Origin: Gelidibacter salicanalis
GTDB lineage: Bacteria > Bacteroidota > Bacteroidia > Flavobacteriales > Flavobacteriaceae
Direction: 5' to 3'
Assembly: GCF_016469035.1 (NCBI RefSeq)
Contig: NZ_JAEHJZ010000008.1
Location: 98,502 to 162,501, forward strand
Length of the DNA stretch: 64,000 nucleotides
Shown here: piece by piece, positions 35,111 to 64,000 of the stretch
Numbering within the stretch: position 1 is the first letter of the stretch
Layout: each line of letters opens with the position of its first letter
The notes under the pieces: generated by a model
What the model was told of the DNA's origin: nothing
What the model saw: the letters and a program-made list of their open reading frames with translations, nothing else
Database searches by the model: none
Translations under genes and position numbers: made by a program

Positions 35111-36142
35111 TTATTTGTTAAAATTCCTTAGCCACTCCCTAAGTTTCGAGTCCTTTTCCCAGCTCGCTTCGTTTGCTTTGACTGGTATGACATTAACGTA
35201 AGCGGCTTCCAATGCCTCACGTTTTTGTTTTGAGTCAGCCCTAGCATAAACTTCAGTAGTCAGGATGGATACATGTCCGAGGATATCGCGTATGTACACC
35301 AAGTTTATCCCGGATTGCAAAAGGTGCATTGCCTTACTGTGGCGCAACGTATGTGGGCTCATTTTTTTAGGTATTATCTCCGGCCTGAGCATCCTTGCAT
35401 TCTTTGCATAAAGATTTAGGATATATGTCACTCCTGAGTTTGTCAGCTTTTCACCCCTATTGTTAGCAAACAAGGGCCGTTGGTTGTATGCCAGGTTATC
35501 AAGGCGATTTTCCTTTATATAAGCCATCAGCAGATTTACCTGTTCATTCTGCAAGGGAACAATTCTTTTTTTGCACCCTTTTCCCAAAAGAGTAACATAA
35601 TATGGTTTGATCAAATGCAGGGATACCGGGGTCAGATCTATGAGTTCCTGCACCCTTGCCCCGCTATCATAAAGCAATGACAGCAGCGCTAAGTTCCGCC
35701 GCCCTGCTTTGGTGTTAACCGGTATTTGTTCCAGCAAGAATTTGATGCCTTCAACGGTCAGGCAATTGACAGCAGTTCTTTTTCCCTGTTTCTTGACTTT
35801 AATGGACAGGATGTCCTGCCATTGTCCAAGACGTTTGACATCTTCATATTGCATATATCTGAAAAATGAATGCAAAGCGGCCAACCTTTGGTTTCGGGTC
35901 GAGTTGGAGCATTTCCGGTTTTCCTCTAGCCAATCAAGGAAGCCAAGAACAGTCTCCTTGTTAAAATGGTTGAGGGTCAGCCTGTCCGCAGATTTAGCTC
36001 TAACCTTATCCATAAAGGTAAGTACAAGGGTAAAGGTCTCACTATACGATCTTATCGTATGGGAGCTGGCTCCCCTTTCGCCAACAAGATACTCTGTAAA
36101 GAACCTTGTAAGGTATTTCGCAAAATCAGTGATTGTTTCCAT
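35111..36142 (-). CDS. Tyrosine recombinase, third gene of the RIT trio (RitC-like)
   Basis: 343 residues. An N-terminal SAM-like core-binding domain (about 10-110) precedes a catalytic domain with the expected residues: Arg in DSGARVQEL, the HTLRHSKAMHLL box, the LGHVSILTTEVYARA box with the nucleophile Tyr, and a Lys in the LLGKGCKKR hairpin. Complete and probably active. Its start overlaps the end of the second recombinase frame by 17 bp. Confidence 0.88.
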   Translation of the reverse strand: METITDFAKYLTRFFTEYLVGERGASSHTIRSYSETFTLVLTFMDKVRAKSADRLTLNHFNKETVLGFLDWLEENRKCSNSTRNQRLAALHSFFRYMQYEDVKRLGQWQDILSIKVKKQGKRTAVNCLTVEGIKFLLEQIPVNTKAGRRNLALLSLLYDSGARVQELIDLTPVSLHLIKPYYVTLLGKGCKKRIVPLQNEQVNLLMAYIKENRLDNLAYNQRPLFANNRGEKLTNSGVTYILNLYAKNARMLRPEIIPKKMSPHTLRHSKAMHLLQSGINLVYIRDILGHVSILTTEVYARADSKQKREALEAAYVNVIPVKANEASWEKDSKLREWLRNFNK

Positions 36143-37163
36143 AATTGATGTCTATTTTGATTTGGTTGGGGAACACAAAGGAAGTAAGTGGGTTTTCCAT
36201 TTTGATGATTTCTGGATAAATTTCCTCTGTCATCCTAACATATTTTTCGGTTCCCTTTATGGACGTATGTCCCAGAAAAGTGGATAGGATTGGGAGCGCA
36301 CAATAAATATCCACTCCATTTTTCACCATTTTTTAAAGGGAGTGAACCGCACAGGTATGCCGGATATCATGTATACGAGGTCCCTGCATCTTCCCTATAT
36401 GTGGTATCCCACACTGTTTTAGCACCTTTTTGAACCACCTGTATGCAGTACTATTTGTAAATGTCTTCCCATTCGCTTTCATAAAGAAAAAATGTTCCTT
36501 GTCCGCCGGGCCTTCAACAGGCATACGGTCCCTATATCCTTCGTATTGCTTCATTACTTCCTCCAGGGATGGGTTTATCGGAACTATTCGTTGCATCTTG
36601 TTTTTTGTTTTTCTTATAATGACCTGATGGTTCTGGTAATCGATATCCATGTTCCTAATGGATAAGGCCTCATTGATCCTTGCCCCGGTACTGTAGAGGA
36701 AGCGTATTAAAGCAGGTATAGCAACAAGAGCTGTGTTCATATTGCCGCGGAACAGATTTAATCTATTGCATTCCTGGAAAATACATCTCATTTGCTCATG
36801 AGTGAAAACATAGGGGATAAAGTCCAGATCCTTTCTCCTGGGGAGCCGTGGGATGTAGCATTCATGGCCAAGATGGCACATATACTTGCAGAACTGCGAC
36901 AATACGGAGTATTTGTCATACAGCGTCCGGGCCTTATCGTTTACACGGGTTGCCCTCCAAGCTGCAATCTGTTCACTGCTTATGTAGGTCGCTGTGGCTC
37001 TGGATTTTAAAAAGAACCTGTCAAGATCTAAAAAGATACGTTCGTACTTGTAAAGCCCATAACCCATGGTATCCTTCATCTTCAGGAAGCTATCAAAATA
37101 GGGGGCAAACACACTTTCATATTTAACTTGCTTATCCATAAAAAACACCTCCTTTCTGCTCAT
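36126..37163 (-). pseudogene. Tyrosine recombinase, second gene of the RIT trio (RitB-like), internal stop
   Basis: The frame is open from 37163 to a TAA at 36333-36335 (276 residues), then continues in the same frame for 67 codons to 36126. The first part holds the catalytic Arg (YSTGARINEAL) and HDIRHTCAVHSL. The part after the stop holds LGHTSIKGTEKYVRM with the His/Tyr catalytic pair. A CAA to TAA change (HSLQKMV expected) fits. The truncated product would lack the nucleophile Tyr and be inactive as a recombinase. Confidence 0.82.
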
Positions 37164-38364
37164 AAAAATTTATCGGTACTAAGGGTACATCAAGTGCACA
37201 CTGCATAAGACTGTTTATATCTATGCGCAAATAGTTCATGGTGGCCTGCGTGTCGGAGTGTCCGAGTGTTTCGGATATGACCGGAAGCGAAGTTCCATTG
37301 CGTAACAACTGACTGGCCAGGGTGTGCCGCATGGCATGGGGGCCGAACTTACGGCCTTTGATATCAACGCCAGATGCTATTATTTTTCTGCTTACCACTC
37401 CATTGATGAGCCTACTGTTCACGGGACGGTAGGGGGCACTGGCAGTCAGGAACACTTGCTGAAAATCGGATATTGGTCTTCCAAATTTCAGGTAGTTGAT
37501 AATGGCTTCGCCGACATCGGTCAAAAGCGGGAGTTCTATTATTTTCTTTGTCTTGCACTGCATCAGGGATATGAGATTATGTTGCCAATCCAAATTCCCA
37601 AAGGTCAGCCCCGCTATGTCCGAAGAGCGGAGACCAAGCCGTGTGGCCAGAAGGAGCATTGCATAATCACGTTTGCCCACCGTACTGGATTGCTCTACCC
37701 TATTTTCGATATGCCCTATCTCATCGGCATTGTAGACTGAGGGCAGTTTTTCACGCAATGGATAGTTGTTTCTTCCGATGAAGTATTCCACATTTCTGTC
37801 AATGTATTTTTTTTGATACAAGAACCGGCAAAATAGTCGGATAGTATTTAGATACCTGTCCTTGCAATTCTGAACTGATGATATGAAGGTAAGAACATCA
37901 TCTTCACCAATGGCCGAAACTTGGTCTATCGACCTTAATGTAAGATGGGCAATAAAGTAACTCAAAATACGACGGTGCGTATTAAGGATAGGTTTGCAGC
38001 GACGGAGCCTTTCTTGGGATACTATAAACTCGAGAGCGACTTCCCCTAGTTTACCGGGCAACTCATGATACACATATTTTACGCTTCTTTTCCTGACTTT
38101 CCCATAAAATAGAAAGTCATCCAGTACGTGTACACTGCGACGGATTGCGCGCATGTGTGAGTCGCTCATTGGCGGGATACCGCTTAAAAATTTCTCACCA
38201 ATTCCAGCATGGTAGTTTACCAAAAGGTTTTTATCCATGTACTGCTCAATTCCATTACGCCAGAACTGATGGTAATCTTTAATTCGGGGTTCGCTGTAGC
38301 CTTCCTCCCTGAGGTAGGCTACACAATCCCTGATCAGGGATTTGATTTCTTTTTCTGTGTCCAT
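37132..38364 (-). CDS. Tyrosine recombinase, first gene of the RIT trio (RitA-like)
   Basis: 410 residues. A long N-terminal region with core-binding fold is followed by the catalytic domain: Arg in ATRLGLRSSDIAGL, Lys in the MQCKTKKIIELPL turn, the HAMRHTLASQLL box, and LGHSDTQATMNYLRI with the nucleophile Tyr. All catalytic positions are present. The last 32 bp overlap the second recombinase gene, indicating coupled translation. Confidence 0.88.
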   Translation of the reverse strand: MDTEKEIKSLIRDCVAYLREEGYSEPRIKDYHQFWRNGIEQYMDKNLLVNYHAGIGEKFLSGIPPMSDSHMRAIRRSVHVLDDFLFYGKVRKRSVKYVYHELPGKLGEVALEFIVSQERLRRCKPILNTHRRILSYFIAHLTLRSIDQVSAIGEDDVLTFISSVQNCKDRYLNTIRLFCRFLYQKKYIDRNVEYFIGRNNYPLREKLPSVYNADEIGHIENRVEQSSTVGKRDYAMLLLATRLGLRSSDIAGLTFGNLDWQHNLISLMQCKTKKIIELPLLTDVGEAIINYLKFGRPISDFQQVFLTASAPYRPVNSRLINGVVSRKIIASGVDIKGRKFGPHAMRHTLASQLLRNGTSLPVISETLGHSDTQATMNYLRIDINSLMQCALDVPLVPINFYEQKGGVFYG

Positions 38365-53512: not shown

Positions 53513-53866
53513 TTACATCCTTCGTACAACCAGGATCTCATCATCAGAAAACTCCATCCAGGCTATGTCATATAAATAAAAGAATGTTTTGCCCTTTGAA
53601 TTTATATGGAAATGGGTATGGTACTTAAAGCGGAACCCTTTCTTCTCCAATAGATTCCTATATACTTTAAGCTGTATTTTGTTTTTACCCAATACCTCCA
53701 AAAGAATCGAGTAATTACGTTTTAAGTAGCCATTGATTTCTATCGCGGCGACCTTAGAGGCATAGCGAAGCTTTTTGTGATATATATTTTTACAGTGGGT
53801 TGAGCAATAAATCTTATCTGATCGACCTTTGATCGGTTTCTCACATATTTTACATTTATGATCCAT
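53513..53866 (-). CDS. Small zinc-ribbon protein divergent from the integrase
   Basis: 117 residues from MDHKCKICEK (53866). The N-terminus has a four-Cys zinc ribbon (CKIC...YCSTHCKNIYHKK). The remainder is basic and partly helical (IEINGYLKRNYSILLEVLGK), with a C-terminal strand-rich part (TFFYLYDIAWMEFSDDEILV). Function unknown. It shares a 130-bp divergent region with the tyrosine recombinase, so an accessory role (regulator or directionality factor) is possible but is inference. Confidence 0.65.
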   Translation of the reverse strand: MDHKCKICEKPIKGRSDKIYCSTHCKNIYHKKLRYASKVAAIEINGYLKRNYSILLEVLGKNKIQLKVYRNLLEKKGFRFKYHTHFHINSKGKTFFYLYDIAWMEFSDDEILVVRRM

Positions 53867-53994
53867 ATAATCCGTTGTTATATAGGTAAATATACACATT
53901 CGTTCCTAACGGATAAACACGTTTAATATCGTTTACAATGATATTTGTGTTACCCAATTTCTCTAAATTTGAATACATCTCTAAAAAGTCTATA

Positions 53995-55131
53995 ATGGAA
54001 AGGAAGGATAGAACTCAGATTGTCATTTACCTCCCCCAAGCCAAAGCTGGTCGGATCAAGCTAAGAATTCCATATGAAATGACTAAGGAACGGGAGACCT
54101 TTAAGAAACTCAACGGCACTTTTTACCATTTCCATCAAAAGCTGTGGAGCATAGTCAATACCGAAGAAAATGTAAAAAGGCTAGAAACGTTTTTTGGCGA
54201 GAAACTAATCAAACAAAGTACAGAAGCTCCTACTTCCATTCCACAAACTGAGATTTCGGAAGCAACTCAGGCAGAATTGGACCGCAATCACCAAAAAATG
54301 ATTCTTAAAGGTTTTAGCCAGGCTACCATACGTAATTATCAGAGTAATTTGATCCAGTTCTTTCAGTATTTCGAATCAGTTGCATACCGAGAAATAACCA
54401 AGGAACAGATAGAAGGCTTTGTATATTACCTTATCAACAAGTACAAGATAAGTGAGCAAAAGCAAAACCAGCTCATAAATGCCATAAAATGCTATTATGA
54501 ACACACTTTGGGCATGCCTCGTGAGTATTACAATATTACAAGACCCACCAAGAGCAAAGATCTGCCAGATGTATTAAGTAAGCAAGAGGTGGCCGCTATT
54601 ATAAACTGCCCGAGCAATATAAAGCATAAAGCCATACTTCATGTTCTTTATGGCGCCGGTCTTCGGGTGGGCGAAGTGGTACGTTTACGGGTGGCGGACG
54701 TTCGTAGCCAAGACGGTTATCTTTTCATTAAAGACTCTAAAGGCAAGAAGGACAGGCATACTACTCTAAGCCCTTTTCTATTGGATATTTTACGGAAATA
54801 TTATCGGGAGCACAAGCCTAGCTATTGGTTGTTTGAAGGACAGAACGGGGGTCAATATACCACACAGAGCATCCAACGTATATATCGGAAGGCTGTAAAA
54901 GACACTAAAAGCAATCCATGGAGTACGCCCCATACCTTACGTCATAGCTATGCTACACATCTTATGGAGCAAGGTGTAAATATCCGTTATATTCAGAGTT
55001 CATTGGGGCATTCCAGCACTAAAACTACTGAGATTTATACTCGGGTTGTAGGAATAAACAACAAAACTTTAACAAGCCCCTTGGATTCTTTGTATGAATC
55101 AGGTACATTTGAGAAAGATAAACCAAAATAG
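53995..55131 (+). CDS. Tyrosine recombinase, candidate integrase of the cassette array
   Basis: About 378 residues from MERKDRTQ (53995); an upstream ATG at 53938 is less likely. A strand-rich N-terminal domain of about 70 residues (QIVIYLPQAKAGRIKLRIPY, FYHFHQKLWSIVNTEENVKR) is followed by a core-binding domain (about 100-190) and a catalytic domain with Arg in YGAGLRVGEVVRL, Lys in DSKGKKDRH, HTLRHSYATHLM and LGHSSTKTTEIYTRV. The C-terminal TSPLDSLY recalls the SPLD ending of IntI integrases. The extra IntI-specific helix between the catalytic boxes is not seen. The cassette boundary lies 60 bp after its stop. Confidence 0.82.
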   Translation: MERKDRTQIVIYLPQAKAGRIKLRIPYEMTKERETFKKLNGTFYHFHQKLWSIVNTEENVKRLETFFGEKLIKQSTEAPTSIPQTEISEATQAELDRNHQKMILKGFSQATIRNYQSNLIQFFQYFESVAYREITKEQIEGFVYYLINKYKISEQKQNQLINAIKCYYEHTLGMPREYYNITRPTKSKDLPDVLSKQEVAAIINCPSNIKHKAILHVLYGAGLRVGEVVRLRVADVRSQDGYLFIKDSKGKKDRHTTLSPFLLDILRKYYREHKPSYWLFEGQNGGQYTTQSIQRIYRKAVKDTKSNPWSTPHTLRHSYATHLMEQGVNIRYIQSSLGHSSTKTTEIYTRVVGINNKTLTSPLDSLYESGTFEKDKPK

Positions 55132-55203
55132 CATGGTGTACATAGGTGATATATACGTAACTCCTCGTGTCATATGTTATATATACACATGTTGTACCCA
55201 ATG
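55132..55203 (+). other. attI-like site downstream of the integrase
   Basis: The gap between integrase and first cassette holds AT-rich partial inverted repeats (about 55149-55190) and then GTTGTACCCAATG (55191-55203). The reverse complement of this 13-mer recurs with one change at 57976-57988, after the TrlF gene. By integron logic, crossover between G and TT at 55191 would mark the start of cassette 1. Confidence 0.6.
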
Positions 55204-55228
55204 TAAACAAACATACTACAAATAGAAT

Positions 55229-57973
55229 ATGACTAATAAAAATTTGACATCTGATAAAGGTTCTATTTGGAGAAAATGGGATTTACACCTTCATACACCT
55301 AATACAAAGTTAAGCGATAACTTTAATAAAGTTGGAGAAGATGACATTTGGAAAACCTATTGTGATAAAATTGAAAATTCGGATGTGGCAGCATTTGGAA
55401 TAACTGACTATTTTTCTTGTGAGAACTATTTTATCTTTTTGGAAGAATTCAAAAAATATTATCCTGATTCTACAAAGGTATTTTTTCCAAACATTGAGTT
55501 TAGACTTGATATATCCGTAAATCAACAAGCGGAAGAAATAAACATTCATATTATCTTTTCCAACGAGTTGTCAAAAACTGTGATAGATGATTTTCTTTCA
55601 AGTTTGAAAACAAATCATTCCAATGCTGGAGGAACAAAAATATCTTGTAGAAATTTACAACCCGAACAATTTGTAAGTGCTACCGTCAACCACAATAATT
55701 TAATAAGTTGCCTTAAAGAAAATTTTGGCAAAGAAAAACCATATTTAATAATTGCAGCGGCAAATAACGCAGGATTAAGACCTGTGAGCAATTCACCTAG
55801 GAAACTAGCAATAACTGATGAGATAGATAAAATCTGTGACGGATTTTTTGGTGGCAGACAAAATGTAAAATATTATCTCAAAACAGATAGATATGAGACT
55901 GATGAAATAGCTAAATCTTGTCCTGTTGTTTGTGGTTGTGACGCTCATTCATTTGAAGACATTGATAATCATTTAGGTAAATTTGTAACTCGACAAAATC
56001 CAGACGGAAAAAATGAAATTTACAAAGATGTAACTTGGATAAAAGCTGATTTAACTTTTGAAGGTTTAAAGCAGATTAAATATGAACCAATACACAGAGT
56101 ATTAATTGCAGAACACGAGCCGAGAAAACCTGTTAGAAGAATCGAAAGTATAAAGTTCAACTTCCCTGCGAGTACTTTTATTCAAAGAAAAAATTCAAAT
56201 GAACAACAAGATTTTTGTTTAAAAAACTTAAAGCAACCAATCTTTTTTAGTGATTATTTCACGTGTATTATTGGTGGTCGAGGAACAGGAAAAAGTACGA
56301 TAATCAACATTTTAGCCGAAAAATTAAATGAAAACACAGACTTTTTCAATCGTTCAGATCTGAAAATAAATGGCTTAAGTTATGACATTGAGAACGATTT
56401 GGATAACTACATTGAAATCGTTGGAACTAACGAAGTAGAATTCGTTAGTCAAGGTAAAATAGAGAAATTAGCAGAAGCCAACGAACTAACAAAACTGATT
56501 TTCGAAGAAAGGATAAAGGAGATTGAAAGTGAGTTCATTCAAATTGAATCTGATTATGAAAACATCAATTCTAAAATTGATGAAAATATTGCCATACTAT
56601 TCAAGTTAATTTCAAACTCAAGAACAAAAAAAGAGAAAACGAAAGAAAAATTAACAATTCAAAAAATTATTGATTCCATAAATGATGCAAGATATATTGC
56701 AATCACTAGTAGAATTAAAACTCTGAAACAGGAATTAACAACAATTGAAAACAGCAAAAGGAATTATAAACTTCTTCTTGACGAATTACGTGTATTAGCT
56801 CAAAATTATCAGCAGTCAGAAACCGCAAATGAAATTGATGTTAGAACACAAGAAATAATATCTACAATAATTGGAATTGATGAAATAAATAAAACAGAAG
56901 AGCAAATTAATGTTGTCTTAAAAGAATTTGCAACAGTTAATTCTAGAATAGACGAGATTAATGCAAACTTAATTTTAGAATCTCAAAATCTTAGAGCGTT
57001 CTTTCTAGAAAAAGGAACAAATGAAGAAACAATCAAAGATTCTCAAAAAGCTTCAGAAACACTTTCTAAAATAACTTCGGATATAGAGAACTTGGAAATT
57101 CAAGACAATCGCTATCGTGCTAGCTATCAAGAAAACACGGAAATCATAAATAATGTTTCCAATCTCTACGATAGAAACAACACTCTAATTAGCTCAAATC
57201 TTTCCGAGATAAATAACAAACTTAAAATTAATGATGAAAATGTTTTAGATATTAATTTCACTTATGAGTTTGACAATGAGTCTTACAAAAATGAACTTTT
57301 CAGAGAGTTTTACAACACCTTCAGTGCTTATCATATTTCAGGAACTTCGGATTCTAGGGTCAAGGAAGCACTATTTCTAATTGAACCAGATTTGGAACTT
57401 TTAAATGTTAACTATGCTAATTTTATTGAACGCCTAAACAACATACTGATAGAGAATAATTACCGAAAAGAAAATAACTATGTAAAAATTGTAACTGACA
57501 TTTTCTCAAGTAAAGGTAATTATCTTATTTACTTAAATCTCTTAAAAAAACACAGATATAACTTATCTAAATATATCAAAATTAACGGGTTTTACGGAAG
57601 TAGAGAACTTGAATCTTGTTCATTTGGCCAACGTTGTACTGCTGTAATCGTAACCCTTTTAATGACAGGTGTTAAACCATTAATAATAGATGAACCCGAA
57701 GCACACCTGGACAACAAACTTGTAGCTGATTATCTGGTAGGTTTAGTAAAAGAAAAGCAATTCGACAGACAAATAATTTTTGCGAGTCATAATTCAAATT
57801 TCGTTATAAATGGAGATTCAGCCCTAATACATATTCTTGAAATACCAAACAATAATGTTTACACTCATAAAACTTCAACTACAATCGAAAATACTGAAAA
57901 TCGAGAAAAATTATTAAAACTTGAAGGTGGTAGAGAAGCTTTTTTAAATAGAGAAAATAAATATGGAATATAA
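55229..57973 (+). CDS. trlF: TrlF-type PHP-domain/AAA ATPase, cassette 1
   Basis: 914 residues. An N-terminal PHP metallo-hydrolase-like domain (WDLHLHTPN with H20/H22, FGITDYFS, VVCGCDAHSFEDI) is followed by an ABC/SMC-type ATPase: Walker A GGRGTGKST (K355), a coiled-coil middle (about 420-690), signature-like SFGQRCTAVIV, Walker B PLIIDEPEAHLD (D821), and H-loop FASHNSNF. TrlF-like proteins are found in defence islands; activity is not established. It lies alone between two boundary sites and is the cargo of cassette 1. Confidence 0.85.
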   Translation: MTNKNLTSDKGSIWRKWDLHLHTPNTKLSDNFNKVGEDDIWKTYCDKIENSDVAAFGITDYFSCENYFIFLEEFKKYYPDSTKVFFPNIEFRLDISVNQQAEEINIHIIFSNELSKTVIDDFLSSLKTNHSNAGGTKISCRNLQPEQFVSATVNHNNLISCLKENFGKEKPYLIIAAANNAGLRPVSNSPRKLAITDEIDKICDGFFGGRQNVKYYLKTDRYETDEIAKSCPVVCGCDAHSFEDIDNHLGKFVTRQNPDGKNEIYKDVTWIKADLTFEGLKQIKYEPIHRVLIAEHEPRKPVRRIESIKFNFPASTFIQRKNSNEQQDFCLKNLKQPIFFSDYFTCIIGGRGTGKSTIINILAEKLNENTDFFNRSDLKINGLSYDIENDLDNYIEIVGTNEVEFVSQGKIEKLAEANELTKLIFEERIKEIESEFIQIESDYENINSKIDENIAILFKLISNSRTKKEKTKEKLTIQKIIDSINDARYIAITSRIKTLKQELTTIENSKRNYKLLLDELRVLAQNYQQSETANEIDVRTQEIISTIIGIDEINKTEEQINVVLKEFATVNSRIDEINANLILESQNLRAFFLEKGTNEETIKDSQKASETLSKITSDIENLEIQDNRYRASYQENTEIINNVSNLYDRNNTLISSNLSEINNKLKINDENVLDINFTYEFDNESYKNELFREFYNTFSAYHISGTSDSRVKEALFLIEPDLELLNVNYANFIERLNNILIENNYRKENNYVKIVTDIFSSKGNYLIYLNLLKKHRYNLSKYIKINGFYGSRELESCSFGQRCTAVIVTLLMTGVKPLIIDEPEAHLDNKLVADYLVGLVKEKQFDRQIIFASHNSNFVINGDSALIHILEIPNNNVYTHKTSTTIENTENREKLLKLEGGREAFLNRENKYGI

Positions 57974-57975
57974 AA

Positions 57976-58112
57976 CACTGGGTACAACACGAGTATAAAC
58001 GCAATAGCGGATTAGTGCTTAAACCAAAAGTAATTTTATAGATTTAAGCCCAGTTATAAACCGAATGATAAGTGCGCAAATCCCGCTACTGCGCTTATAC
58101 CAAACGTTAGGC
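57976..58112 (+). other. attC-like site 1 (long stem-loop)
   Basis: R''-type box GGTACAAC (57981-57988) and R'-type box GTTAGGC (58106-58112, fits GTTRRRY) flank a long imperfect inverted repeat: about 57993-58018 pairs with 58075-58100 (GTATAAACGCAATAGCGG against GTATAAGCGCAGTAGCGG on the other strand) with one unpaired base. Unpaired spacers of 4-5 nt separate stem and boxes, as the unpaired central spacer does in integron attC sites. Total about 135 bp, near the size of Vibrio cholerae repeats. Confidence 0.7.
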
Positions 58113-58154
58113 ATAATTAAAAAAACGCGAAATACAATTAAATCAAGATTAATT

Positions 58155-58541
58155 ATGATAAAAAAAATAGTCTTTACAATAATATTTATTATCACTTTGA
58201 GCAGTTGCGAAAATAAAGTTTATTATCCATCTGAATTTTTCCTTATTAATCAATGTGATTATACTATCAAAGTTAACAGTTCAGCACTTGTTAGATATTC
58301 GGATGGAAATCGCGAGGAAAGCATTAGCGATTTAGTCTTATCTGGAGACACTCTTTCTTTGCGTAGAATAAAGGTAACTGATAGCGTAAATATAACTGAT
58401 GTATTTACAAAAATCGAAATATATAAAGAATCAAAATTGTCAAATGTTAATATAATGAATATAGAAAAATGGAATCGGAATAAAACTTCTGAAAAAAAAT
58501 TAGAATTTATTTTTGAAGTTAAACCGAATTCATTTGAATAA
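58155..58541 (+). CDS. Small lipoprotein of unknown function, cassette 2
   Basis: 128 residues from MIKKIVFTIIFIITLSSC, a lipoprotein signal with Cys18. The mature part is beta-rich with no recognised domain (YYPSEFFLINQCDYTIKVNS, LIFEVKP-like end). ATG 58155 was chosen because the signal peptide starts there. It starts 49 bp after the cassette boundary and is the only gene of cassette 2. Confidence 0.7.
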   Translation: MIKKIVFTIIFIITLSSCENKVYYPSEFFLINQCDYTIKVNSSALVRYSDGNREESISDLVLSGDTLSLRRIKVTDSVNITDVFTKIEIYKESKLSNVNIMNIEKWNRNKTSEKKLEFIFEVKPNSFE

Positions 58542-58546
58542 AAACT

Positions 58547-58605
58547 ATGCCTAATAACTAAGGATTCGGCTCGCCGATAGGCCAGAGCTGAATCCTGTGT
58601 TGACG
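58547..58605 (+). other. attC-like site 2 (compact)
   Basis: R'' box ATGCCTAATAAC (58547-58558; the reverse complement of the cassette start GTTAGGCAT is ATGCCTAAC). Stem AGGATTCGGCTC (58561-58572) / GAGCTGAATCCT (58585-58596), 11 of 12 paired plus one G.T. R' box GTTGACG (58599-58605). Only two bases separate boxes and stem. The total of 59 bp equals the short attC sites of mobile integrons. Confidence 0.7.
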
Positions 58606-58824
58606 AATCCGGTTGATTTGCCGTCTTATGGGTAAAACGTTAAGTTAAGGGAAGGATATTTGGAGGTTACGCTGGTATTTGTGTAGTCAAGAAGTATAGA
58701 AGTCGATTATTTTATAACATTCACCTTGGCTTTTTAGTGGTTTCAATTTACGATCTCTGGTTATTATCGTTTAATTTTTAAAGTCAAGGCATAGCGCAGC
58801 CCGTCCGCATATGCAGAATAATTT

Positions 58825-59964
58825 TTAGCTGCTCTTATTCAATTTTCTATCTTTTAGTAAAACGCGCCAATTCTCGGGAGGCCCACGGTCATTGAACAAT
58901 AGTATTGTATGCAGTCTTCCCTTTTTACAGAGAGGACACCGGCGGTGCAAAAGCGGCTCTTTTGTTCTGACAGGTTCCACCTTTACCGTAGCCAGTTCTA
59001 CCTGTAGTTTTGGCAACTTCTCCTTTTTCCAGCTGCTGCTCAAAATACCATAATGCCGTATCCTGGTAAATCCCTTGGGTAAAACATGCAGGGCAAAGCG
59101 CCTGATAAACTCCTGGCTTGACAAGATCAAAGGGACTTTCTTTCCTGCACGACGGTAATCTTTGGCGGTAAAGCTCACACTTCTGCTTTTACGATCTACA
59201 TCTGTGATCCGATGGTTGCTGATCGCTATTTTATGGGTATATCTGCCCAGGTATTCAATTACATATTTTGGGCTTCTAAAAGGTTGTTTGGCATAGACCA
59301 CCCATTTTTTACCGAACACTTCATTGTAAATTTTCTGAGGGATCTTTAAGTCACTTTTTCTAAGCTCTGCGATATATTTTGCCCTAAACACTTGACTCAT
59401 GGATTTTACATTGAACAAGTAGTTGCCATTGTTTTTTGCCTTTTTCCATTGTCCTGATTTGCTCAAACCACCGCCCGGGACAATGCAGTGCAAGTGCGGG
59501 TGTAAACTCATATTTTGACCCCAAGTATGGAGCACTGCAATCATCCCCATTCTCCCACCAAGGTGCTTGGGATTGTCACCAAACTGCTGTAAGGTCTGCC
59601 AGGCAGCTCTGAACAGACTGCCGTACACTATTTTGCCGTGGCTCAATGCATAACTGTTAAACTCGCTTGGAAGGGTAAACACCACATGAAAATAGGGAAC
59701 GTTCAAGAGTTCGCCTTCCCTTGCCCTGATCCACTCTTCGCGTTTGTGTCCCTGACAGGTCGGGCAATGCCTATTTCTGCAACTATTGTAACTGATGTGA
59801 AGTCCGTGGCAACAATCGCATTTATCAATATGTCCGCCCATAGCTTTGGTGCGGCACCTTCTTATGGCATGCAAGGCTCGGTAGTGCCATGAGGTCAGGC
59901 CCAAGTTTTTGAGCTGTAGCTGTTCCATTTCTAAAATGTCAGCCACCGTATGTTTGGGGCGCAT
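58825..59964 (-). CDS. IS91-family transposase
   Basis: 379 residues. N-terminal zinc finger (CDCCHGLHISYNSCRNRHCP, then TCQGHKREEWI), the HUH motif SLHPHLHCIVPGGG with two metal-binding His, and the catalytic Tyr segment YVIEYLGRYTHKIAISNHRI. A second C-terminal Cys pair CPLC is present near residue 350. It acts as a single-strand, rolling-circle-type transposase. Its start touches the stop of the upstream recombinase gene. Confidence 0.92.
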   Translation of the reverse strand: MRPKHTVADILEMEQLQLKNLGLTSWHYRALHAIRRCRTKAMGGHIDKCDCCHGLHISYNSCRNRHCPTCQGHKREEWIRAREGELLNVPYFHVVFTLPSEFNSYALSHGKIVYGSLFRAAWQTLQQFGDNPKHLGGRMGMIAVLHTWGQNMSLHPHLHCIVPGGGLSKSGQWKKAKNNGNYLFNVKSMSQVFRAKYIAELRKSDLKIPQKIYNEVFGKKWVVYAKQPFRSPKYVIEYLGRYTHKIAISNHRITDVDRKSRSVSFTAKDYRRAGKKVPLILSSQEFIRRFALHVLPKGFTRIRHYGILSSSWKKEKLPKLQVELATVKVEPVRTKEPLLHRRCPLCKKGRLHTILLFNDRGPPENWRVLLKDRKLNKSS

Positions 59965-60791
59965 CAGTCGTAGAGCTTGTCCAGTGGAGAGAACTTCGAA
60001 CCACTGGGCAGATTGGCCACATGCAGATAGGTCAGGGTCATCTCGATATGCGCATGGCCCAAAAGTTCTTTTAGGCTGACAATGTCAACACCATATTCCA
60101 ACAGATGCGTGGCAAAGGTGTGCCGCAAGGTGTGGGCGGTTATCTTTTTGGAACTGCCTATTTTGCTTCGGTTCTCCTTGATGACCCATCGGATCCCATT
60201 GGTGGTCAACCCCCGAGCTACTCCATCTTTGGTGACCTGACTGTTGAAAAGATAGGTCTGGGGATTTTCCGTTCTGATATATTTCTTCAGTCCCCTGACC
60301 AGATATGTACTTAAAGGAACGTAGCGGTCGATCTTCCCTTTTTTCTTGGGGATAAAGACCGTTCTGCGATCAAAGTCGATGTCCGCCAGTTTGAGGTTGC
60401 AAAGTTCGTAGCTCCTAAGTCCGCAGCCATAGAGCATCCCGATGATCAGACGGTGCTTTAGGTATTTGGGCGCTTTTAAAAGGCGCTTTACCTCGTCTTT
60501 GTTCAATACGACGGGCAGTTTCAAATCCCGTTTGATCTGGGGCAAAGCTACCCGCTTGGCCTCCATGCCCATGACTTTGTAGGCGGCCCTGAGTCCGAAA
60601 ATGGTGTGTTTAAAGAAACTTTCAGATGGGGTTTTGTGGAGTTTTTGGCAGTAATAAAGGTAAGACTGAATGTTTTCCACCGAAAGCGTTTCTGGGCTCT
60701 GTTTATAATGCAGGGCAAGATGTGCTAGGCATCGAAGGTAATTGTTTAAGGTGCTTTTGGCTTTGCCATTGATAGAAAAGCTCTGCTCCAA
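59964..60791 (-). CDS. Tyrosine recombinase partner of the IS91-type transposase
   Basis: 275 residues. Core-binding domain (KSTLNNYLRCLAHLALHYKQ) and catalytic domain: Arg in YGCGLRSYELCNL, Lys in KKKGKIDRY, HTLRHTFATHLL, LGHAHIEMTLTYLHV. The C-terminal SGSKFSPLDKLYD is like the SPLDSLY end of the recombinase at 53995, so the two belong to one branch. It overlaps the transposase start by one base. Confidence 0.87.
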   Translation of the reverse strand: MEQSFSINGKAKSTLNNYLRCLAHLALHYKQSPETLSVENIQSYLYYCQKLHKTPSESFFKHTIFGLRAAYKVMGMEAKRVALPQIKRDLKLPVVLNKDEVKRLLKAPKYLKHRLIIGMLYGCGLRSYELCNLKLADIDFDRRTVFIPKKKGKIDRYVPLSTYLVRGLKKYIRTENPQTYLFNSQVTKDGVARGLTTNGIRWVIKENRSKIGSSKKITAHTLRHTFATHLLEYGVDIVSLKELLGHAHIEMTLTYLHVANLPSGSKFSPLDKLYD

Positions 60792-60968
60792 TTTGTTCTG
60801 GAGTGTGCTGAAACCTGCTACTTCCTCAAAAGCGCGTTCAGCAATGGTTTTACTTTTTTTTAAACATGATATTAGATTTAATATTTAGCTACAAATTAAT
60901 AAATCTATTACATTTACAAAAACAACATCCGATCTGAAAGGTGCAGGAGGGCTTCCGACCGGTAGGGA

Positions 60969-60981
60969 GGATTCGTTCAAC
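60969..60981 (+). other. 3' boundary box of cassette 3 (R'' of attC-like site 3)
   Basis: GGATTCGTTCAAC. Its reverse complement, GTTGAACGAATCC, matches the start of the same cassette (GTTGACGAATCC at 58599-58610) with a single inserted base. The rest of the expected attC stem is absent; a group II intron begins 4 bases later. Confidence 0.6.
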
Positions 60982-60984
60982 ACC

Positions 60985-61752
60985 GTGTAAAAATAATTGC
61001 TTGGTTCTCGCCTACTTGGAAATTCCTGCGGAATTTCCACAGGCTTGGTCAATGTTTAGTATTTTAGGTGCTTGCCACCGCAACTATTCTTAGTGTGCCA
61101 AGAAGCAGCCACGGCAATAAACTGGCTGCATGCTGTAATTGAGATGATGGTAGGCCCATCAGGGTCGTTGTATAGGCGATGGCTCTAAACCACCTAAAGG
61201 TGCTGTTGTAAAGAGCAATGGTGCTGAGCGTTTAGGAGAATCCAATCCATGAGGTTGGCAGGTAGGGATAAAGGAGTTGAACGAAAGTGAACCACTGAAG
61301 AGGTGTCGAGAAGTTGCTACCCCCAGTCAAAAGCTACGAAGTATGATACGGAGTGAAAAGTAATGTTAGCAATAGCATTAATTACAGAGAGTGCCTATTT
61401 ATTTTCTGTAAGGCTGGCGTCATTCAGGTGGCAAGAACTTTATTCGGGCTTAGTTACGGAACTTGGGAACCTGGTTATAAATGCAAAGGGAAATACACAA
61501 TAGGCACAACCTAGAGGTAGAATACCAATGTTGTAATTAGGGGCGGACTCATTCGTAGTAGTATTGATCCCGATAGCTATCGGGACTGTAATGGAAATGG
61601 AGCAAAGGGATGAGCTAATTTGATGTACAGCCTGCCAACTTGAAAAAGGATGAGCTATTTTTGTACACCACTTTAGAAGAGCCGTATGATGGGAGACTAT
61701 CACGTACGGTTCTGTGAGAGGCTCGGGGTGAAACTCCCCTTGTCTACTCGAC
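60985..61752 (+). mobile_element. ORF-less group II intron
   Basis: It starts GTGTAAAAATAATTGC and shares the 5' domain with the second intron at 63576 (CTCGCCTACTTGGAAA, a CCTGCGGA hairpin, GTAAAGAGC, TGAGCGTT). The 3' end holds domain V (about 61678-61712: GAGCCGTATGATGGGAG to CACGTACGGTTC, with the AGC triad) and domain VI ending ACTCGAC. Length is about 768 nt; the reverse transcriptase/maturase ORF is missing from domain IV, so it needs a maturase in trans. A perfect palindrome TCCCGATAGCTATCGGGA lies at about 61568. The 3' exon is ACCAAACGTTAGCC. Confidence 0.8.
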
Positions 61753-61769
61753 ACCAAACGTTAGCCTTC
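61753..61769 (+). other. 5' boundary of cassette 4 (R' of attC-like site 3)
   Basis: ACCAAACGTTAGCCTTC. It shares ACCAAACGTTAG with the R' end of attC-like site 1 (58099-58110). The box GTTAGCC fits GTTRRRY, and GTTAGCCTTC is the approximate reverse complement of GAAAGGCTACAA at the end of the same cassette (63563). Confidence 0.65.
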
Positions 61770-61809
61770 ATTAAAGAAAACGAGCAAACAGTAACACAAA
61801 AGAGAAATA

Positions 61810-63561
61810 ATGTCATATTTAGGAATATCAATAAAAGAAGCGATAAATAATGCAAATAATGGAACAAATGGTTGGTTTCTTCCTGCCATACAAAGACCTT
61901 ATGTTTGGGGTAGCAGATATGAAAATGAAATATACATCTGCAAATTATTTGACTCAATTTTAAAAGGTTATCCAATAGGTGGACTTATTGTTTGGAACAC
62001 AGATGAAGAAATACCTTACAGGGAATTTATCTCGGACTATATGCCTGATGAAATCCCGAAATTAGTTGATAAAGGTTTGCACAAACGACCTGATAAATGG
62101 CTCATCTATGATGGACAACAGCGAATTCAAACTCTCTATAGTTGTTTAAAATATACATTTCACGGTAAAATTCTTGTTTACGATTTGCTATTTGATTTAA
62201 ATAATGGAAACGACCCCGAAGAAATTGGTTTTTCATTTGTAGCAAAGAATTCAGACCTTGAATGGAATTTCATCAGAATGAACGAATTATTTTCAAAACA
62301 ACCTGATGAAGAAAAACGCACATATCGAAAATCAATACTTAAATTGAATGAAAACATAAATGATAAAGAGGAAGAGTTAATTGAAAATAACATTGATATT
62401 CTTTGGGATATTTTTGTTAAAACAGATACCAAATCACTTGCTTATTTTCCAATTAAAACTGCTGATGAAAAAGTCGTAAACGAAATTTTTGAAAGGCTAA
62501 ATACTGGTGGAATGGCTCTCTCATTAGCAGACATATTGTTTTCTAAAATTAAGTCTGAACATTATGACTTTGAAGAAAAACTTCAAGGTTGTTCAAAAGA
62601 AATATATAATTCAACTGGAAAGGGTTATTTGTTTAATGCGTACAATATTCTTCAACTAATTTACTTGTTGGTAAAAAAAGGTGTGAGAATTGACCCCAAG
62701 AAAGTTAAACCAAATGAAATTAATATTTTTAAATCGACTTGGGATAAATTAGAAGCCCCATTGCAATCTTTTTTTACAGATTATTTGTGGGGACAGTTCA
62801 AAATAAACAATAACTCAATTATTCCAAGGAATTTGGCATTACTACCAATAATGGTTTATTTCTATGAAATATATAGTAAAGGTTATAAGTTTAAGAATAT
62901 TTCAGGACAGAATCTGAAAAGTATTAATACATATTTTATAAAATCTCAAATCAACGACTGGAATCTGCAAAGTTATATTGATAACTTTAGTAAGCTAATT
63001 GCTGATAAATCAAAACAAACAGATAAACTATTCGATTTTCCCATACAAGAGATTGAATCTTTTATATCTGAAAAGAAAAAACGGAATACCGAAATTTATG
63101 AAGACACTTTTACTGGATACAATTGGTTTGTTTTAAAAATACTGACACCTGAACGAATTTATCAATTTGAACCAGATATTAAAGGGCGTTTTAATCCTGA
63201 AATTGACCACTTATTCCCAAGAAAATTAAAAAACAGAAATCTTGATTATGATAATACTGTTGATATAGTTTGGAATATGCAACCGACCAAAGGAGAAATA
63301 AATGGTTTTAAAACCAACATACATCCAAAATTATTCTTTACGGATAAGGCTAAAAATGGGAAAGGGGAAATTATAGTTGGTAGTAAATATGTTAATGAAT
63401 ATGATTTTTTGTTTCCAACTAACAGTAACAATCAAATTGACTTTGATGACAGCATTTGGGAAAGACCAATTGAGTTTATTGAAAAACGAAAAGAAAAAAT
63501 GATTGATTATTTACAAGCTAAATATGACATAACATTTAAAGTTGACCAAAAAAATGAATAA
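61810..63561 (+). CDS. DUF262 plus HNH/DUF1524 GmrSD-like protein, cassette 4
   Basis: 583 residues. N-terminal DUF262 domain with IQRPYVWG (about 28-35) and the IYDGQQRIQTLYS motif (D101-R105), as in GmrS-type ParB-like nucleotidases. The C-terminal part carries a DUF1524-like HNH nuclease motif, PEIDHLFPRKL (H467) with WNMQPTKGEIN. GmrSD-type proteins are type IV restriction enzymes that cut modified phage DNA. It starts 50 bp after the cassette boundary and stops 2 bp before the 3' boundary box. Substrate modification unknown. Confidence 0.85.
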   Translation: MSYLGISIKEAINNANNGTNGWFLPAIQRPYVWGSRYENEIYICKLFDSILKGYPIGGLIVWNTDEEIPYREFISDYMPDEIPKLVDKGLHKRPDKWLIYDGQQRIQTLYSCLKYTFHGKILVYDLLFDLNNGNDPEEIGFSFVAKNSDLEWNFIRMNELFSKQPDEEKRTYRKSILKLNENINDKEEELIENNIDILWDIFVKTDTKSLAYFPIKTADEKVVNEIFERLNTGGMALSLADILFSKIKSEHYDFEEKLQGCSKEIYNSTGKGYLFNAYNILQLIYLLVKKGVRIDPKKVKPNEINIFKSTWDKLEAPLQSFFTDYLWGQFKINNNSIIPRNLALLPIMVYFYEIYSKGYKFKNISGQNLKSINTYFIKSQINDWNLQSYIDNFSKLIADKSKQTDKLFDFPIQEIESFISEKKKRNTEIYEDTFTGYNWFVLKILTPERIYQFEPDIKGRFNPEIDHLFPRKLKNRNLDYDNTVDIVWNMQPTKGEINGFKTNIHPKLFFTDKAKNGKGEIIVGSKYVNEYDFLFPTNSNNQIDFDDSIWERPIEFIEKRKEKMIDYLQAKYDITFKVDQKNE

Positions 63562-63562
63562 C

Positions 63563-63575
63563 GAAAGGCTACAAT
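63563..63575 (+). other. 3' boundary box of cassette 4 (R'' of attC-like site 4)
   Basis: GAAAGGCTACAAT; GAAGGCTAAC would be the exact complement of the cassette start, so it matches with two small indels. A group II intron begins immediately after it, as at site 3. Confidence 0.5.
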
Positions 63576-64000
63576 GTGTATAAGCAATGGCTTGTCCTCG
63601 CCTACTTGGAAAATCCTGCGGATTTTCCTATGGAAAGTACCTGTTTGCAATTGTCCGTGACGAACCACGCCACAGCTCATACGTGTGCCGAGAGTAACGA
63701 CTGGCTGAAAGTCGTTACACAACTGTTTACAAGATGGTGGAACCGACCCACCGGTGTTGTCCTACAGGGGAGAGCATCAAACCCCCATAAGGTGCTTTGG
63801 TAAAGAGCCAAGGTATTGAGCGTTATGGAAAAGGCTGCGCCACGAGCGTGGTCAGGTATAGATAATGGAGATGAATGCAAATGAACCTCTGAAGAAGTGT
63901 CCCCGCTGAAGGGCGGGGCAGGCTGAGAAAGTGCAACCTTCTGTCAAAAGTGTTTGAAGTATGACAAACATTATAAGTCCAGCGGTTACCTGTTTATTGG
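63576..64000 (+). mobile_element. Group II intron, 5' part, runs off the window
   Basis: It starts GTGTATAAGCAATGGC and contains domain I features shared with the intron at 60985: CTCGCCTACTTGGAAAA, the CCTGCGGATTTTCC hairpin, AAGGTGCTTTGGTAAAGAGC, TATTGAGCGTTATGG, and TCAAAAGTGTTTGAAGTATG near the end. The maturase ORF and domains V-VI would lie beyond 64000. This copy could supply the maturase for the ORF-less intron. Confidence 0.75.

Follow-up and report, generated by a model that had tools for sequence, protein, structure and literature searches.

Organization of the locus

The window, that is, the whole stretch of DNA analysed, comprises 64,000 nucleotides of a Gelidibacter salicanalis contig, and its end is also the contig end. 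Positions 53938-64000 probably hold a damaged integron-like platform, consisting of an integrase gene, an attI-like site and single-gene cassettes with genes for TrlF, a lipoprotein and a DUF262-GmrSD protein. The features are:

53513..53899, minus strand: zinc-finger companion protein of 128 amino acids (C-x2-C ... C-x3-C), divergent from the integrase gene, recognized by alignment
53938..55131, plus strand: integrase, a tyrosine recombinase of 397 amino acids with the C-terminus SPLD (Phage_integrase, 129.7 bits)
55132..55191, plus strand: attI-like site, 60 bases from the integrase stop to G^TT
55191..58105, plus strand: cassette 1, TrlF gene at 55229-57973, with paired boxes
57975..58119, plus strand: attC1, inner part of 117 nt, long hairpin
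58106..58555, plus strand: cassette 2 up to its end box, small lipoprotein-like gene at 58158-58541, attC interrupted
58556..60979 (ends approximate), minus strand: IS91-family element, transposase at 58825-59964 and tyrosine recombinase at 59964-60791
60980..61092, plus strand: left arm and middle of attC2 up to the intron, ACCGTGTAAAAATAATTGC.. with hairpin TTGGAAATTCCTGCGGAATTTCC
61093..61752 (ends approximate), plus strand: ORF-less group II intron within the L' arm of attC2 (Rfam RF01999, 109 bits; RF00029, 65.4 bits)
61760..63576, plus strand: cassette 3, DUF262/GmrSD_N gene at 61810-63561, end box damaged
63577..63682, plus strand: left arm and middle of attC3, TGTGTATAAGCAATGG.. with hairpin TTGGAAAATCCTGCGGATTTTCC
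63683..64000, plus strand: second group II intron (RF01999, 101 bits at 63736-63857), running off the end of the window

The TrlF gene scores 461.8 bits with NF045780 (cut-off 350). The gene in cassette 3 matches GmrSD_N (108.8 bits) and the PADLOC model HEC-05 (E 3.2e-46), and profile searches gave no family match for the lipoprotein-like protein of cassette 2. The L stem of attC1 contains two A.C mismatches 5 bp apart, and its bottom strand folds at -30.7 kcal/mol, the top strand at -27.6 kcal/mol. The two group II introns are absent from the original prediction; both start with GTGTGCC, each in the L' arm of an attC. In another part of the window (35231-37725, minus strand) there are three tandem tyrosine recombinase genes, the middle one with a stop codon, an arrangement that presumably resembles a recombinase-in-trio element.

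The original prediction described four consecutive cassettes, each with a start box whose reverse complement recurs at its end. Three of these stand, two of them in damaged form. The boxes of cassette 1, GTTGTACCCAATGT (55191) and ACACTGGGTACAAC (ends 57988), pair over 10 bp, one A.C mismatch and 3 bp, and those of cassette 2, GTTAGGCATAATTA (58106) and CTATGCCTAAT (58545-58555), pair as well; the terminal AAC of the cassette 2 end box is altered to AAT at the start of the IS91-family insertion. For the DUF262 cassette both boxes were found, GTTAGCCTTC (61760) and GAAAGGCTACAA, but their pairing requires an indel and the AAC is disturbed. The remaining segment (58599-60983) was rejected as a cassette: the pair GTTGACGAATCC and GGATTCGTTCAAC is real but sits in the ends of an IS91-family element, as seen from the transposase (Y2_Tnp match; NF033538, 425.8 bits) and from copies elsewhere in the genome that are about 90% identical and have the same ends.

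The insertion of this element separates the end box of attC2 from its L arm, and the first group II intron splits attC2 a second time. The recombinase of the element is 32% identical to the window integrase. At five of the eight IS91-family copies in this genome the right end directly adjoins a left arm like that of attC sites, and these elements are possibly an attC-targeting IS91 group. On a Chryseobacterium oryzae plasmid (L257, 10927-12869) an IS91-family element is likewise located between an end box and the L arm of an attC. Eleven places in the Gelidibacter genome carry a fragment resembling the 3' end of the integrase gene together with an attI-like site, without the remaining integrase; such fragments are found on contigs C337, C34, C187, C659, C381 and C370 (L068, L059, L060, L058, L072, L063, L066), in most cases close to a gene and to the left end of an IS.

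Cassettes behind related integrases

The box pairs of the window were rejected as sufficient evidence by themselves. In a chain test the window scored 6.5, and 20 shuffles reached a mean of 6.5 and a maximum of 10.5. Since the window gives no significance alone, its relatives decide. The chain test exceeded all 20 shuffles in 11 of 17 stretches; those not above the shuffles were the window, contig C34 of the same genome, L107, L114, L118 and L120. This first test used exact matches only and had a weak score, and a stricter signature was used in its place, in which at least nine of ten box positions are paired, position 11 is A.C and at least two of the three positions beyond are paired. Plain 7-bp box pairing was uninformative, the linked pairs of L117 and L112 being inside or near the shuffle range.

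Two sets of loci were analysed. The first contained 20 loci from the top of the integrase list, two of which were excluded because fewer than 600 bases follow their integrase. The second contained 20 loci, mostly from single-contig genomes, that were picked regardless of the sequence behind the integrase; three of them come from genomes that had already contributed a locus, and one genome is represented twice. In 28 of the 38 family loci (14/18 and 14/20 in the two sets) a paired cassette start lies no more than 150 nt from the integrase stop; on the reverse strand there is none (0/38), and shuffles gave 0.20 loci for the first set and 0.10 for the second. Altogether, 351 signature pairs were counted, compared to 16 on the reverse strand and approximately 27 in shuffles (first set: 128, 7 and 11.9; second set: 223, 9 and 15.5). 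Linked cassettes are present at 29/38 loci (14/18 and 15/20). Ten of the 38 loci have no adjacent paired start and nine no linked cassettes, and some integrase relatives are not followed by an array, namely L114 (0 pairs) and L243, L244, L252 and L255 (0-1 pairs). Box pairing, which in the window is no better than in shuffled sequence, is far above shuffles in the related loci.

We also scored 80 named loci, with counts taken only from those that have at least 600 bases behind the integrase. The count was 11/29 in Bacteroidota (reverse strand 1), 2/32 in other phyla without IntI and 0/8 beside canonical IntI, the latter on the sense side only. The eight canonical IntI loci gave two strict-signature pairs with both strands summed; their cassettes are unmapped, so that this is not a clean comparison of attC kinds. 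Among the named genomes, linked cassettes were seen for instance in Rufibacter sp. SYSU D00344, Winogradskyella ursingii, Seonamhaeicola aphaedonensis and Algibacter onchidii. On the plasmid of Chryseobacterium sp. SNU WT5 (L256) three linked pairs lie behind the integrase (reverse strand 2), and the plasmid loci L257, L258 and L259 showed none. Outside the arrays, Polaribacter phage P12002L has four signature pairs on one strand (shuffles 0-2), three of them with the flanking C and A; the full C-GTT..A segments (L235, 30952-31120, 39242-39518 and 40552-40764) are not tied here to the sites of PMC9892861.

Counts of linked cassettes presuppose box matching and were for this reason checked by other routes. 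In 12 arrays attC sites were located solely by inner-part homology, and nine of these arrays gave neighbouring sites. In 25 of 34 cases the two boxes of a cassette match at six or seven of seven variable positions, compared to 35 of 323 for other combinations. In some of the nine cases that do not match, intervening sites may have been missed.

Arrays change at GTT

Comparison of closely related loci showed where the arrays differ. The window and L105, a locus of the same genus with a 95% identical integrase, are alike through the attI-like site to GTTG and then contain different cassettes. A same-genus genome has a nearly identical attI-like site up to ..ACACATGTTG, with different cassettes after it. 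In the sister pairs L113/L114 and L115/L116 the shared sequence likewise reaches GTTG, with different content beyond, and agreement between two Chryseobacterium plasmids (L256/L257) stops at AAGTT. Cassette-precise differences at G^TT, expected from the original prediction, were thus found in sister loci.

Cassettes also recur within arrays. L113 contains a cassette of about 512 bp three times with 100% identity, L116 has an 849-bp cassette twice, and in L112 the first cassette is repeated near the far end; in all three the left edges are at GTT. Some other duplicates in L112 and L113 have different edges and extend into a similar attC. Duplicates with other edges in L107, L114 and L121 were taken for insertion sequences. 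A cation-efflux cassette is common to L116 and L153 (88.9% identity, both edges), loci with integrases that are far apart; the Gelidibacter genome contains the cation-efflux gene with its end box and without the start box. The cassette edges lie at (C)GTT, the putative crossover point, and TTRRRY is followed only loosely, owing to the variable box.

Anatomy and folding of the attC sites

As in canonical integrons, the cassettes end in a palindromic attC with R and L arms. For the outer box, 238 cassettes were compared that are linked or adjoin attI and have an exact 10-bp box, with nothing required beyond it. Position 11 is A.C in 191 of them and paired in 15; pairing resumes at positions 12-14 (197, 189 and 169 cassettes) and falls to 58 at position 15. 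A C before GTT together with an A after AAC occurs in 174/238. The inner part is 116-119 nt long in 93 of 200 sites, with a lesser group near 182 nt and another near 54 nt. These groups near 54, 118 and 182 nt (L105-L158, L236-L255) are approximately 64 nt apart.

In 51 non-redundant attC sites the L stem varies through compensating changes, and A.C mismatches are retained at fixed places. An anchor A.C, chosen as such, is found in 48 of the 51, and a second A.C five positions away in 25 of these 48. An A.C on the top strand is a G.T on the bottom strand, which thus folds into a more continuous hairpin: the bottom strand is the more stable one at 49/51 sites, with a mean bottom-top difference of -3.82 kcal/mol compared to -1.02 (sd 0.21) in 40 dinucleotide-shuffle sets. 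Shuffles also favour the bottom strand (36/51), because base composition accounts for part of the bias.

The integrase and its zinc-finger partner

The integrase is a XerA/Xer-like tyrosine recombinase with an extra N-terminal domain. It scores 187.8 bits with the IntI model TIGR02249, below the cut-off of 265 and with the alignment in two pieces, and 193 bits with the XerA-type model NF040815, under the curated cut-off of 220. The eight IntI proteins used for comparison score 389-496 bits with TIGR02249. Between the KGxKDR and HxLRH motifs there are 100-101 residues in these eight IntI, 58-59 in 23 array-bearing integrases and 58 in the window integrase; 18 residues of the window protein stand where IntI4 has 61 (43 fewer). 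The alignment to IntI thereby confirmed the original prediction that the IntI-specific helix is missing, and judged from its sequence the window integrase lacks the IntI-specific insert (I2 helix). An AlphaFold2 model of moderate quality (pLDDT 78, pTM 0.56) has XerA, an archaeal Xer and IntI4 as its best PDB matches.

A tree of 94 proteins separates the 23 array-bearing integrases from the eight IntI at a supported branch (100/99). Its deep order is unresolved and 63 rows belong to neither group, so that the tree fits a single or a double origin of integrons. Integrases of the window kind (E <= 1e-60) are present in 109 of 397 Flavobacteriaceae genomes, and across loci the attI-like site and the integrase vary together. 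Relatives of the integrase with 676-720 residues occur in Marinilabiliaceae and a GWF2 Bacteroidetes MAG (L160, L163, L177), with three linked cassettes in L177. A Firmicutes MAG (L148) and a Spirochaetota MAG (L157) contain relatives outside Bacteroidota, possibly by wrong binning; in each, a single paired cassette start follows the integrase at a distance of 104 or 100 nt.

A divergent zinc-finger gene of 115-150 codons is located upstream of the integrase in 17/20 of the first and 11/20 of the further loci (28/40), and in 9/80 named loci. Its best Pfam similarity is a weak one to the DUF2116 treble clef. A search of the phylum for this family fetched 30 loci, 21 of which have no integrase nearby, and a second copy is found in the Gelidibacter genome (C303:34055-34399). 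Since many genomes have copies away from integrases, the gene is not a clean marker.

Cargo

The median length of 139 cassettes is 691 bp. A main ORF of at least 50 amino acids is present in 129, and in 123 of these 129 it lies on the cassette strand, which corresponds to the single-ORF, same-orientation cassettes of integrons. A Pfam scan of 118 cargo proteins found no family in more than three; matches include nucleotidyltransferase, beta-lactamase-fold and cation-efflux families, and PADLOC reported restriction-modification and Septu (PtuA) models. The TrlF and HEC-05-like genes of the window are consistent with defence-rich cargo.

Discussion

The data are best explained by an integron-like platform of Flavobacteriaceae that was damaged here by an IS91-family element and two group II introns, a reading drawn from comparative sequence data to which we assign a probability of roughly 0.85. 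Related genomes strongly support the original prediction, a cassette array that follows a non-canonical integrase: they show G^TT-precise differences, a within-cassette pairing far above the controls and attI-like sites, and the 13 searched for it contain no canonical IntI. The integrase would cut at G^TT and integrate circular cassettes of one gene each into the attI-like site that directly follows its gene; through the attC sites it could remove cassettes, copy them and change their order. Each attC would act as a hairpin, with an outer box (10 bp, A.C mismatch, 3 bp) built from both ends of one cassette. The sequences themselves show the architecture, the paired boxes, the precise edges, the strand asymmetry and the missing IntI insert; we infer that the window-kind integrase performs this reaction, that the folded bottom strand is its substrate and that the zinc-finger protein takes part.

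We further lean, by a narrow preference, towards a Bacteroidota integron lineage that recombines bottom-strand attC hairpins without I2. The mismatches, A.C on the top and G.T on the bottom strand, would set strand and polarity instead of the extrahelical bases that I2 reads, perhaps with the zinc-finger partner, and the lineage would be either ancestral, predating I2, or an independent invention. PMC7790495 describes the IntI-specific domain, absent here, as necessary for cassette capture, which speaks against the proposed role of the integrase.

A Xer-type two-strand route, in which the integrase would act on double-stranded boxes and the hairpin would simply follow from their symmetry, is rather unlikely. 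It would suit an enzyme without I2 whose closest matches are XerA-like, and the 10-bp boxes could be ordinary binding sites, but adjacent cassettes of an array have different boxes, the long L stems covary by compensating changes with A.C kept at fixed places, and the bottom strand folds better at nearly all sites (49/51).

There is only a small chance that the segments are real integron cassettes that owe their movement to a canonical IntI, acting in trans or in earlier hosts, with the neighbouring recombinase as a bystander. None of 13 genomes searched contains a TIGR02249 match over the cut-off, the best matches being integrases of the window kind, and the attI-like site lies directly behind the integrase in 28/38 loci and varies together with it. 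These observations speak against it. In its favour, attC sites are recognized by structure, and PMC9892861 reports that IntI1, in E. coli, recombined one of two attC sites tested from Polaribacter phage P12002L, so that such sites would not have to depend on a particular integrase.

Spread of the segments by one-ended rolling-circle transposition of the IS91-family element instead of by the integrase is very improbable. It would fit contig C34, where most array genes are followed by an IS left end, and the 11 fragments with integrase end and attI-like site, but the arrays of L117, L112, L115 and others have attC repeats and cassette edges at GTT, and the window element sits inside an attC with both attC parts flanking it. 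Although the window test alone is not significant, the reading as ordinary terminators or repeats in an inherited gene order can practically be dismissed, as it is contradicted by sister loci that change content exactly after GTT and by identical cassettes that recur in one array.

If the platforms of this integron-like kind are working integrons, integrons are common in Bacteroidetes, with the integrase in 109/397 genomes of the family and linked cassettes at 29/38 loci. PMC9024848 regards integrons as nearly absent from Bacteroidetes. PMC8618304 lists Bacteroidota among integron carriers and PMC2426708 lists intI genes for the Bacteroidetes/Chlorobi group, so that the phylum itself is not new to integrons. 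For Flavobacteriaceae no report of integrons with this integrase and attC kind was found in the literature covered, which excluded subscription papers and preprints. IntegronFinder is described in PMC9668308 as demanding the IntI-specific domain, and on that description searches of this type are expected to miss these platforms.

The I2 helix is regarded as the feature by which integron integrases arose from ordinary tyrosine recombinases. Integron-like arrays behind integrases without the I2 region make this view testable.

Regarding known systems, the closest sequence and structure matches of the integrase are XerA-like archaeal recombinases (NF040815; PDB 4a8e, 5hxy), and we know of no cassette movement by XerA enzymes. 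IS91-family elements with a second tyrosine recombinase are represented in the window by the inserted parasite of attC2, which is not the platform. Mobile elements that target attC include the IIC-attC introns and IS1111-attC; the introns and the IS91-family element of the window are likewise located in attC sites, both introns in the L' arm. With chromosomal integrons the system shares a tyrosine recombinase gene beside an attI-like site, single-ORF cassettes in one direction, palindromic attC sites with R and L arms, the inferred G^TT crossover and a diverse cargo including candidate defence genes. Unlike chromosomal integrons, it has an integrase that lacks the IntI-specific insert and reads toward the array, with attI behind its 3' end, an outer box of 10+3 bp with fixed A.C mismatches, and a divergent zinc-finger partner.
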